Below are positions 20,467 through 30,255 of a stretch of DNA of 32,008 nucleotides, in pieces. The translations under genes and the position numbers were made by a program. Origin of the DNA: Gemmatimonadota bacterium. Its GTDB lineage: Bacteria; Gemmatimonadota; Gemmatimonadetes; Gemmatimonadales; Gemmatimonadaceae. The first letter of the stretch is position 1, and every line of letters begins with the position of its first letter. The stretch covers positions 1 through 32,008 of the forward strand of contig DAHUXM010000010.1 in assembly GCA_027307165.1 (NCBI GenBank). The letters run 5' to 3'. A model generated the notes under the pieces. The model did no database searches. It saw only the letters and a list, made by a program, of their open reading frames with translations, and was not told where the DNA came from.

Positions 20467-21327
20467 CTACGGGGCTATAGTGTTCCGTGTTGCCAGCACG
20501 TAGTCCACGTGCCACTCACGGTCGAGCTGGTGAAACGATGCGTCTCTAAGGAGTCCCGCGGCGATAAGCATCTCGTGCGCCGGTTGTAATACCCGCTGCA
20601 GATGAGAAGGATATCGCTGAGTAAGAGGCAATTGCGAAGCCAGTAGGCCAAGAGAGATGCGCCAGGTTATGTGGTCCTGCGATCTGGCCGTTGCCAGCAG
20701 ACGGTAGAGCCGGCGAGCGACCGGGTTGGACAGACTGCCATACTGCTGGAGCGAGAGCGAGATTGTGTTGCCGGCCGCGATGTTGGCGCGAAGCTGCGGT
20801 GATACGACTACCCGCGCGTCGCCCGGCTCCGAGGCCGAAAGTGCTGAGAAAAGCGCCAGCTGGTCCCGATCGGTCAAGCGGCGCCGCTGGATCGTGACCG
20901 AGCTGAGGATGGTGAAAGTCCCTTCGAACGGTCGTTCGGAAGCAATCTGGTACGCGCCACTCGATTCAAGTCTCGTCCGCTCCAGCCGGTTCAACGCGGA
21001 TCTGAGCTGCTCGTAGGTGCGGCCGTCCACCTTTCGGCCGATCGATCGGAGGAACGAGTGAAGCGTGAAACGAACGACACCGTCGGCGGGGAAGCCAGCC
21101 TCCCCGAAGCGGTGCAGGATCTCGACGTAAACGTCCTGATCAAAGGTACCCGGTAGCCTGTCGCCGGGTGCAGGGAGCACGCGCCAGCGGCCACCCCCCG
21201 GTGGGGTATACGTTATGGCGCCCTCGTCCGCCGAGTCGCTGAGGCGGAAGAGGGGAAGGGCTTCGAGCGACCGGTCGAGGGCGACTGTCTTGCTCGTCGG
21301 CCGTCGGCCGGGCACTGCCAGATGCAT
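20467..21327 (-). CDS. replication initiator protein A-like (RPA family)
   Basis: From the ATG at 21327 the protein has 286 residues. It resembles the replication initiator protein A family, built of winged-helix units: VRFTLHSFLRSIGR, TYEQLRSALNRLERTRLES, VARRLYRLLATARS and the SHLQRVLQPAHEMLIAAGLL region. A longer frame to 21432 exists, but its first 35 residues look unrelated and would leave only about 25 bp between divergent genes. Family members start replication of plasmids and secondary replicons. Chromosomal homologues such as this one, heading an operon with a housekeeping protease, may instead be DNA-binding regulators. No iteron array is visible nearby. The gene is first in the minus-strand core operon. 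Confidence 0.72.
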   Translation of the reverse strand: MHLAVPGRRPTSKTVALDRSLEALPLFRLSDSADEGAITYTPPGGGRWRVLPAPGDRLPGTFDQDVYVEILHRFGEAGFPADGVVRFTLHSFLRSIGRKVDGRTYEQLRSALNRLERTRLESSGAYQIASERPFEGTFTILSSVTIQRRRLTDRDQLALFSALSASEPGDARVVVSPQLRANIAAGNTISLSLQQYGSLSNPVARRLYRLLATARSQDHITWRISLGLLASQLPLTQRYPSHLQRVLQPAHEMLIAAGLLRDASFHQLDREWHVDYVLATRNTIAP

Positions 21328-21457
21328 ACCTATAGAATAGGCGATGCCGGCACGCTTGGAAGAGGGAAGTGGAACGGGAAGTGAATAGGGAACGGCGTAC
21401 CTGTGGCGTCGAGCAACCGGAGACCAGACCATTCACAAGCCGAGCGATAGATCATTG
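21328..21457. promoter_or_regulatory. divergent intergenic region between RPA-like and phospholipase D-like genes
   Basis: Both genes read outwards, so this 130-bp stretch should hold two promoters. On the minus strand a weak -10-like TATTCT lies about 10 nt before the ATG at 21327, which would give an almost leaderless message. I see no strong -35 element or operator palindrome. Confidence 0.4.
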
Positions 21458-22792: not shown

Positions 22793-22989
22793 CGTCATTC
22801 CCGCGAAAGCGGGAATCCATGTGTCGCTCGTCATTCCCGCGAAAGCGGGAATCCATGTGTAGCTCGTCATTCCCGCGAAAGCGGGAATCCATGTTATCGA
22901 TCTCTGGATGCGATGTTACCATGAACCTGGTCGGCAGCAGATGGATTCCCGAGGCGCGGATGCATCCGCGCCCTACAGCGGGAATGACG
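22793..22989. repeat. composite palindromic repeat element, copy 1
   Basis: Three identical 20-bp palindromes, ATTCCCGCGAAAGCGGGAAT, start at 22797, 22833 and 22869, exactly 36 bp apart. They are joined by near-identical 16-nt linkers ending in CTCGTC. Then comes a 56-nt core (22889-22944), followed by a reverse-facing half-site pair (ATTCCC at 22945, GGGAAT at 22980). The centre of that pair is replaced by a separate perfect palindrome at 22953-22972. The whole lies in the gap between the phospholipase D-like and lhr genes. A second element with the same layout is at 29552-29693. Each palindrome can form a strong hairpin in RNA, so transcription termination or mRNA stabilisation for the upstream gene is plausible. 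Confidence 0.9.
22953..22972. repeat. perfect 20-bp palindrome nested in the repeat element
   Basis: GGCGCGGATGCATCCGCGCC is its own reverse complement. It sits where the reverse-facing member of the repeat family should have its loop, flanked by CCTACAG and the outer ATTCCC/GGGAAT arms. It looks like a palindrome inserted into, or recombined with, the fourth repeat unit. Confidence 0.75.
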
Positions 22990-23029
22990 AATCTGGTGAG
23001 CTTTCGCGAACTCGACGAGTAACCGAACC

Positions 23030-28584: not shown

Positions 28585-29544
28585 ATGGATCGCCCGACTG
28601 ACGCCACGATCGCCGAGCGCACCGGACCGCGAATTACGCCCGGCTGGGTGCTGGGTGCATCGCTGCTCGGTATTTCCGTTGCGGGACCGCTCACGCGACT
28701 GTCGTCCGCCGATCCACTGGCGATTGCCATTGGGCGCATCGCGTTCTCGCTCGTCGTGATCGGCGTGTTGCTTGCGGCGACCGGCGAGTGGCGACAGTTC
28801 GCGCGGCTCGAGCGCTTCGAATGGTTCCTCGCCATCGGCGCGGGCGCGGTGCTGGCGCTGCATTTCTGGTCCTGGAATGCGTCGCTTCATCTCACGACAA
28901 TTGCAGCGTCCACTACGCTGGTGACGAGTCTTCAGCCGGGCTTCGTCGCGATTTTGTCGATCTTCATCGCGCACGAAGCGCCGAGCCGGCGGCAGATTGT
29001 CGGACTGACCATCGCCACGTTCGGTGCCATCTCGATAACCGTGCCGGATTTCATGACCGGTGCCGCGACGGTTGCGACACCGAACCCGCTGCTGGGGAAC
29101 GCGCTCTCCGTCGGCGCCGCGCTTGCGGCCGCGCTGTACATGGTCGTCGGCCGCAGATTGCGCTCGCGGCTGGGCGCATGGTCGTACGTTGCACTGGTGT
29201 ACAGCGCTGCGCTCGTCACACTGCTGTGCATAGCCGCCGTCTCGGGAATACACGTCGCGCCTCAGCCACCGCGCGATCTCATGATATTCGTCGCGCTGGC
29301 ACTCGGCCCCATGCTGCTCGGCCATACTGGAATGAACTGGGCCCTGGAGCACCTTCCTGCTTACATCGTCAACCTCACGATGCTCGGCGAGCCCGTTGGT
29401 GCAACGATACTCGCAGCGCTATTGCCCGGGATTCACGAAATTCCGAGATGGACCACGCTTGTGGGCGGCGCGATAATCCTGGTCGGCTTCATTGTCACGG
29501 TGTGGAATCGAGAGGAGAAAGTGGAGCTTGTCGAAGCGCCGTAG
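28585..29544 (+). CDS. DMT superfamily transporter, EamA type
   Basis: The start at ATG 28585 gives 319 residues, the usual size. The protein is almost entirely hydrophobic, with about ten transmembrane helices arranged as two EamA repeats. The first repeat runs over about 18-150 (VLGASLLGISVAGPLTRL, ALHFWSWNASLHLTTIAAST, LVTSLQPGFVAILSIFIAHE). The second runs over about 165-310 (ALAAALYMVVGRRLRSRLG, LLGHTGMNWALEHLPAYIVN, LGEPVGATILAALLPG). Related proteins export amino acids or other metabolites, but the substrate of this one is unknown. It is divergent from the oxidoreductase gene, and a composite repeat separates it from the convergent MerR-type gene. Confidence 0.88.
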   Translation: MDRPTDATIAERTGPRITPGWVLGASLLGISVAGPLTRLSSADPLAIAIGRIAFSLVVIGVLLAATGEWRQFARLERFEWFLAIGAGAVLALHFWSWNASLHLTTIAASTTLVTSLQPGFVAILSIFIAHEAPSRRQIVGLTIATFGAISITVPDFMTGAATVATPNPLLGNALSVGAALAAALYMVVGRRLRSRLGAWSYVALVYSAALVTLLCIAAVSGIHVAPQPPRDLMIFVALALGPMLLGHTGMNWALEHLPAYIVNLTMLGEPVGATILAALLPGIHEIPRWTTLVGGAIILVGFIVTVWNREEKVELVEAP

Positions 29545-29551
29545 CGAAATT

Positions 29552-29693
29552 CGTCATTCCCGCGAAAGCGGGAATCCATGTTATGGATCTTCGAGTGCGA
29601 TGACAGCAGGAAACGGGTCGGCAGCAGATGGATTCCCGCTTTCGCGGGAATGACGACGGACACATGGATTCCCGCTTTCGCGGGAATGACGAC
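29552..29693. repeat. composite palindromic repeat element, copy 2
   Basis: One forward palindrome (29556-29575, identical to copy 1) is followed by a 56-nt core (29576-29631). Two reverse-facing copies, ATTCCCGCTTTCGCGGGAAT, start at 29632 and 29668, again exactly 36 bp apart. The core is the same length as in the element at 22.8 kb and matches it at 45 of 56 positions by hand alignment, including the shared 3' block GGTCGGCAGCAGATGG. It fills the gap between the convergent EamA and MerR-type genes and probably ends transcription from both sides. Confidence 0.9.
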
Positions 29694-29709: not shown

Positions 29710-30255
29710 CTACGCGCGCGTACCGTTCCTTCCGATCGCGGCGCGCACCGCTTCTCTCATCGCCATCACGACATCGTCGTCCGCAGCGCCGGAATCTTCC
29801 CGCACGTGCAACTCGATGCCATCTGCGACCAGCACTCGGCGCCACGTCGCGGGTTCGTCGCCCTGCATCACCACTTCATCGGCGCGAACGAGTAGTGCAG
29901 GCTCGAGTGATCCCGCCACGCGCTTCTCGAGCACGTCGCCGGTCAGTGTCAGAACTTCCTTTTTGATAGCGTCGAGTGATTGACCTTCGCGCTGTCTGAT
30001 CTTGACCGTCAGAAGCTGCAGCAGATGCCGGTAATGATACGTTGCTGCCGTGCCGGTACCTTGCGGGCGATCGATCAATCCCGCGGAAACGTAGAAACGA
30101 ACCGATCGCGCGGACGGCGCTGCGCGTGCCGACGCATTGGTCGGACGAATGCCTGCCGAGTCTACAAGACTGGCGGCGTGAGCGGCGAGCCCTCTGGCAT
30201 TCCAGGGAGCGTGTCGAGCGTGGGCGCGGAGGAGGGCAACCGGCGATTCAGCCAT
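29710..30255 (-). CDS. MerR-type transcriptional regulator
   Basis: The 181-residue protein carries a MerR-like DNA-binding segment at about 46-100: SARSVRFYVSAGLIDRPQG, followed by YHYRHLLQLLTVKIRQREG and SLDAIKKEV. The first 45 residues are an unusual alanine-rich leader instead of the normal short MerR start. The remaining C-terminal region (EDSGAADDDVVMAMREAVRA) shows no known sensor motif. The ATG at 30255 lies 94 bp inside the end of the upstream hydrolase gene, and no later ATG, GTG or TTG precedes the helix-turn-helix. The large overlap therefore seems real unless a rare start is used. Target genes are unknown; the overlapping hydrolase is the obvious functional partner. Confidence 0.75.
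   Translation of the reverse strand: MAESPVALLRAHARHAPWNARGLAAHAASLVDSAGIRPTNASARAAPSARSVRFYVSAGLIDRPQGTGTAATYHYRHLLQLLTVKIRQREGQSLDAIKKEVLTLTGDVLEKRVAGSLEPALLVRADEVVMQGDEPATWRRVLVADGIELHVREDSGAADDDVVMAMREAVRAAIGRNGTRA

Follow-up and report, generated by a model that had tools for sequence, protein, structure and literature searches.

Organization of the two intergenic arrays

The window, the whole 32,008-nucleotide stretch that was analyzed, is contig 34 of a 3.7 Mb Gemmatimonadota genome in 37 contigs (labelled G000). Six exact copies of a 20-bp palindrome, ATTCCCGC-N4-GCGGGAAT, were found in it, spread over two intergenic sites. Locus 1 (22793-22990) lies between the end of a PLD-domain gene (22759) and the start of a codirectional Lhr-type helicase gene (23030), and carries exact palindromes at 22797-22816, 22833-22852 and 22869-22888, a step of 36 bp. 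Locus 2 (29552-29692) lies between convergent genes, an EamA transporter gene ending at 29544 and an opposite-strand MerR-type gene with its 3' end at 29710, and carries exact palindromes at 29556-29575, 29632-29651 and 29668-29687. When up to 3 mismatches were allowed, the window held 10 palindrome matches against 0.29 expected, and 0 of 100 shuffles reached 10. The consensus REP at both loci is CGTC-ATTCCCGC-GAAA-GCGGGAAT-CCA; one pair faces inward around the core, and the extra palindromes are added on its outer sides. Features were assigned as follows:

22793..22828, + strand: outer tandem unit 1 of locus 1, a CGTC-1 REP and linker
22829..22864, + strand: outer tandem unit 2 of locus 1, a CGTC-1 REP and linker
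22865..22891, + strand: left arm of the locus 1 REP pair (CGTC tag, palindrome, CCA tail)
22892..22941, + strand: 50-nt spacer of locus 1 (56 nt from palindrome to palindrome)
22942..22990, - strand: right arm of locus 1, a chimeric REP of CGTC-1 arms enclosing a GTAG REP
22952..22976, - strand: nested GTAG-type REP hairpin of locus 1 (reverse strand, GTAGGGCGCGGATGCATCCGCGCC)
29552..29578, + strand: left arm of the locus 2 REP pair
29579..29628, + strand: 50-nt spacer of locus 2 (56 nt from palindrome to palindrome)
29629..29655, - strand: right arm of the locus 2 REP pair
29656..29692, - strand: outer tandem unit of locus 2 (REP at 29665-29691, 36 bp off the right arm)

The original prediction had both loci built from inward-facing palindromes around an equal 56-nt core, and the coordinates of the two cores (22889-22944 at locus 1 and 29576-29631 at locus 2) confirmed this. 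Relatives of the window's Lhr protein, with up to 86% amino-acid identity, were found in Gemmatimonadetes/Gemmatimonadaceae MAGs. Elsewhere in the window, among ordinary chromosomal-looking genes, positions 20467-21432 (- strand) matched the Pfam RPA family (replication initiator protein A; E 7.7e-19).

Members of the family in the genome

The exact palindrome was counted 139 times genome-wide (reversed control, 0), and the exact tagged REP, CGTC-ATTCCCGC-N4-GCGGGAAT-CCA, 128 times (63 + 65). Arrays were located by scoring the 26-base unit GTC-ATTCCCGCGAAAGCGGGAAT-CCA in fetched loci, and identical sequences were collapsed. This gave 63 distinct arrays with a common grammar of n left palindromes, a core and m right palindromes, the CGTC tag pointing outward. 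The commonest layouts were 1+1 (24 arrays) and 1+2 (12 arrays); one side was missing in 8 of the 63 (layouts 0+2, 4+0, 3+0, 2+0 and 1+0), owing to contig ends, decay or, at locus 1 of the window, the split right arm. From these arrays 55 plain pairs were catalogued, all of them head-to-head; the genome-wide search for palindrome plus core, proposed earlier with the proviso that the core might occur at the two window loci only, thus found it well beyond them.

Palindrome-to-palindrome length in the 55 plain pairs was 56 nt in 46, 55 in 6, 57 in 2 and 54 in 1, corresponding to CCA-to-TGG cores of 50 (46), 49 (6), 51 (2) and 48 nt (1) and to a REP pair of about 105 bp in all. In the 46 equal-length pairs, each arm had a mean identity to the consensus of 0.989, whereas the core reached 0.828 and the 20-nt flanks 0.43-0.47, so the repeat stops at its arms, which are 26-27-bp inverted repeats. 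The pair was predicted to fold into a single hairpin (-39 kcal/mol as DNA; z -10.2; 0 of 200 shuffles). The core was also considered as a structured RNA and rejected: RNAalifold on the 46 equal-length pairs paired the arms only, and the core alone folded at 0.0.

Nearest paralogous cores differed at a median of 7 of 50 positions (5/50 for the locus 1 core and 6/50 for the other window core), and the cores of L053, L054 and L065 differed at 0 or 2 of 50 within unrelated flanks. Four gametes were seen in 134 of 190 pairs of informative core sites, a count from which no recombination is claimed because repeated mutation gives the identical pattern. A search of viral_contigs returned 0 exact core matches. 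Against plasmids, the whole pair gave two distant matches at 72-75% identity, in Azospirillum oryzae (NZ_CP054615.1, 306840-306930) and Novosphingobium resinovorum (NZ_CP017076.1, 1624625-1624712); these stretches are possibly alphaproteobacterial REP pairs of like kind.

Outer tandem units

Neighboring same-strand palindromes were 27-58 bp apart, with 36 bp the commonest distance (18 of 64 intervals); the 36-bp period of the original prediction therefore stands inside the two window loci and was rejected as a strict genome-wide rule. Linkers were alike within a locus (mean likeness 0.774; 36 comparisons, 14 array sides) and not between loci (0.297; 820 comparisons). The L054 pair is also present in the sister genome (L164), where it has no outer unit; the additional unit in the present genome contains sequence nearly identical to the flank at that site (GAGCCCAACAGCG vs GAGCCCTACAGCG). 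Since linkers are alike only within loci and the L054 unit includes a copied flank, outer units arise by local duplication of a REP together with its flank. For the expectation that copy number changes by slippage or unit-wise recombination, the comparison supplied one instance of a gained outer unit, palindrome and flank duplicated together. In G039, a species without strict pairs, five coreless CGTC REPs were seen in tandem at ~42-bp spacing (L163, G039:C182).

Relation to known repeat families

The palindrome resembles that of the Neisseria dRS3 and intergenic mosaic elements, which is ATTCCC-N8-GGGAAT. Di Nocera, De Gregorio and Rocco equate Neisseria dRS3 with the CGTC-1 class of REPs (Di Nocera et al., 2013; PMC3733652), state that CGTC REPs have no dedicated transposase and name their mode of movement as an open question. 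The CGTC-1 dimers described there share with the present family the CGTC tag, an 8-bp stem starting with AT, a 4-nt loop and a CCA tail, as well as head-to-head arrangement, conserved spacers (20-100 bp), a preference for gene 3' ends and the lack of a transposase; tail-to-tail and head-to-tail dimers are rare in that class. In the present genome the 128 exact tagged REPs have an unpaired CGTC tag at one end, an 8-bp stem, a 4-nt loop and a CCA tail, the 55 plain pairs are head-to-head, head-to-tail neighbors are the outward tandem units (64 intervals), and none of three Y1 loci has an exact CGTC palindrome within ~1.5 kb. The tag, stem, loop, tail and head-to-head layout place the family among the CGTC-1 REP dimers. 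The same source notes that some genomes contain GTAG REPs as well. Set against that text, the host phylum, Gemmatimonadota, lies outside the five phyla it lists, outer tandem units are commoner here (grouped CGTC elements are described as rare), and no mention of GTAG-in-loop chimeras was found in the consulted part of the paper; compared with that part, the novelties are the phylum, outward arrays that are specific to each locus and the chimera of CGTC and GTAG REPs. Literature searches on the CGTC REP names returned this paper alone; by title, nothing related was returned for REP with Gemmatimonadetes, nor among the matches listed for RAYT with Gemmatimon.

REPINs (Bertels and Rainey, 2011; PMC3116915) are likewise inverted REP pairs with a spacer that form a single hairpin with conserved arms, are intergenic, occur in tandem clusters that include flanks and show signs of unit loss. 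The two inverted REPs, spacer and hairpin are all present here. Classical REPINs differ in having a RAYT flanked by its own REP, whereas RAYT loci in this genome carry GTAG and not CGTC REPs, and in leaving an asymmetric deletion where the candidate footprint here is a symmetric palindrome (PMC3116915). The family is called REPIN-like rather than filed as a REPIN because a cognate RAYT with matching REP was sought in the genome and not found.

Transposase search

Three Y1 loci were found in the genome; two ORFs matched the RAYT model NF047646 and the third was interrupted. The RAYT-like ORFs in L046 and L048 scored 74 and 60 bits, under the 80-bit cut-off of the model. GTAG REPs with the same stem as the nested REP of the window stand on both sides of the gene at L046, and another GTAG REP lies near that at L048. 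No exact CGTC palindrome was present within ~1.5 kb of the 3 Y1 loci, which fits the 2013 statement that CGTC REPs lack a dedicated transposase (PMC3733652). Y1 genes were detected in 30 of 179 genomes of the family, being present in G040, which has no strict pair, and absent in G039; Y1 presence does not track the strict pair.

Distribution among relatives

A strict pair was defined as GCGGGAATCCA-N35..65-TGGATTCCCGC and searched in the same 179 genomes. Two contained it, the present genome (46 strict pairs) and its sister G041 (6); the outgroups G039 and G040 had 0. Exact tagged REPs were counted in 4 of 4 genomes of the genus (G000 128, G041 19, G040 17, G039 45), so the pair with its 50-nt spacer is restricted and the REP is not.

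Flank probes placed 38 of 39 loci in G041 (L024 was missed) and 7 known loci were added, giving 45 site pairs; the resulting shares are not an unbiased rate, because the 7 were known from element presence in G041. At these orthologous sites G041 had a full pair at 6 (L023, L028, L051, L054, L061 and L079), a half pair at 1 (L029) and none at 38. Identity of the compared flanks was mostly 0.88-0.98, with poor alignment at some sites (L038, L040). The L038 site in G041 (L189, G041:C2:89200-91095) holds ~600 bp with two small ORFs that by eye resemble a toxin-antitoxin pair. The full pair at L054 is common to both sisters and the L053 site is empty in G041. At L023 and L028 the cores were too divergent for sure common descent; four orthologous cores differed at 1-3 of 50-51 positions. 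Arms of orthologous pairs were not clearly more conserved than cores (few changes, few pairs), and the proposal that arms are better conserved by descent was dropped for the small number of orthologous pairs. At L051 the core is inverted in place between the sisters (L158 in G041), with 3 differences when inverted vs 31 without inversion, the outcome that exchange between the inverted arms would give.

For locus 1 of the window, the site in G041 reads CTGTAGATCCTCTCGCTGAC uninterrupted, with no palindrome and only a few bases between the genes, and a relative (L088) has a similarly short gap without the element. The element of locus 2 is absent in G041 and in the same, more distant relative. 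Another relative has a symmetric CGTC-like palindrome (GTCATCCCGGCCTTCGGCGGGATGAC; L083, 5930-5955) in the gap matching locus 2. The earlier proposal to look for empty sites and target duplications in sister genomes was borne out in its first part: empty sites were found, and no target-site duplication was seen by eye in the 45 site pairs.

Perfect symmetric palindromes, for example GTCATTCCCGC-TTTC-GCGGGAATGAC, occupy 4 of the 45 sites in G041 (L022, L030, L058 and L059). Exact copies are rare (G041 5, G040 4, G039 2, G000 1), and 3 of the 5 in G041 fall at pair sites of the present genome. At L030, two outgroups carry unrelated hairpins and no symmetric palindrome, which does not settle the direction of change. 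In G040, 2 of the 4 exact copies (L227, L229) were seen in the intergenic regions of pairs L060 and L049, with flanks too diverged for base-by-base alignment. At five G041 loci (L190, L202, L204, L209 and L214) a GTAG-type hairpin was observed in place of the pair; different REP families are thus drawn to shared intergenic places.

Origin of the pairs

We consider it likely that the two window loci represent the same non-autonomous, REPIN-like element, in which a pair of head-to-head CGTC-1 REPs encloses a conserved 50-nt spacer and moves with it as a unit. The family has many copies, conserved arms, presence and absence between sisters, one inverted core and near-identical cores in unrelated flanks. 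The two REPs and spacer could fold into one long hairpin, and the pair would move as this hairpin in single-stranded form, with a Y1/HUH-type (RAYT-like) or other transposase acting on it in trans. Outer REPs are added by local duplication of REP and flank, as seen at one site. Loss of a pair would probably proceed by collapse through its internal 8-bp direct repeats, ATTCCCGC or GCGGGAAT, and a symmetric palindrome would be the expected remnant of such a deletion. Gain is the simplest reading for both window copies, since neither the sister nor the more distant relative has the element there. The larger distances among paralogous cores (median 7/50) than among orthologous ones (1-3) mean that many insertions may be older than the divergence from G041, which would then have lost them; the two window copies nevertheless resemble gains, and their nearest cores are 5/50 and 6/50 away. 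At most sites, absence from the sister may reflect either a gain here or a loss there.

The same core distances would suit a relic, now immobile CGTC family, its pairs predating the sister split and the differences being mostly sister losses by hairpin-driven deletion. This account is possible, if somewhat unlikely. It would explain the perfect palindromes, the expected deletion product, at four of the 45 pair sites, and it accords with the suggestion of Di Nocera et al. (2013; PMC3733652) that CGTC families may be going extinct; it is opposed by the identical or near-identical cores in unrelated flanks, with the L053 site empty in the sister, by the two window sites being empty in both relatives, and by the lack of strict pairs in G039 and G040. 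Were the symmetric palindromes instead targets, with pairs inserting into existing CGTC palindromes, the allelic relation of pair and palindrome in the sister would fit too, as would the exact palindromes of the pair-free outgroups (4 in G040, 2 in G039); we regard this as improbable, given that the outgroups carry unrelated hairpins at L030 and that the sister has no palindrome at the locus 1 site. Retention of the palindromes as bidirectional terminators or mRNA 3'-end stabilizers, that is, as functional RNA and not a mobile element, is suggested by strong hairpins, by 44 of 63 arrays lying between convergent (22) or codirectional (22) genes and by a median of 35 bp to a gene 3' end (74 distances; crude ORF calls), but is very unlikely as an explanation of the family: the pair is absent at 38 of 45 sister sites, and a shared core, here without conserved structure, would be superfluous for a terminator. 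The repeat may influence transcripts secondarily.

The REPIN-like reading agrees with the original prediction of a small mobile or amplifying element of dRS3 or MITE type, which is supported by the core at 55 plain pairs, the empty sister sites and the equation of dRS3 with CGTC-1. The two intergenic arrays of the window are accordingly mobile-type repeats and not CRISPR arrays, attenuators or structural RNA genes. With dozens of pairs here and few in a close sister, clearly occupied and unoccupied sites, one core inverted in place, putative products of collapse and the chimeras, movement of CGTC elements becomes testable by strain comparison.

Chimeric CGTC/GTAG REPs

The reverse palindrome predicted at locus 1 is in the right-arm place but is not plain, being split by a GTAG-type REP that the prediction had missed. 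It reads ATTCCCG-AGGCGCGGATGCATCCGCGCCCTAC-A-GCGGGAAT at 22945-22985, with the 25-nt GTAG-type hairpin AGGCGCGGATGCATCCGCGCCCTAC at 22952-22976; on the other strand the chimeric REP reads CGTCATTCCCGC-T-GTAGGGCGCGGATGCATCCGCGCC-T-CGGGAATCCA, the GTAG-type REP replacing the loop. At least 11 chimeric REPs were found, in 10 of 65 places scanned (the window, L026 with two, L029, L031, L041, L049, L055, L059, L070 and L078), a sample biased because the places were fetched for plain CGTC palindromes; a degenerate twelfth lies downstream in L070. The CGTC tag points outward in 11 of 11. At least 3 form the right arm of a pair (window, L070, L078) and elsewhere the chimera is an outer unit. Two were found at fetched loci of the sister G041 (L176 and L210, the sites of L029 and L055).

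This anatomy suggests a past insertion of a GTAG REP into a CGTC REP loop; the resulting chimera now occupies ordinary REP positions. The likely RAYT of the nested REP is encoded in this genome between REPs of identical stem. A more far-reaching and highly doubtful idea is that the chimera is a live bridge between REP super-families: a GTAG REP at a fixed point, spread within CGTC pairs and arrays, would let a GTAG-specific RAYT cut and move CGTC elements. If so, CGTC elements, for which no transposase is known, would be mobilized in trans by a GTAG RAYT encoded in this genome. At L041 and L049 the pairs have a common left neighbor, a chimeric REP with the truncated core CCATGTTATCGAGCTAAAGTC after it, and cores of their own that differ; a larger composite may have moved.
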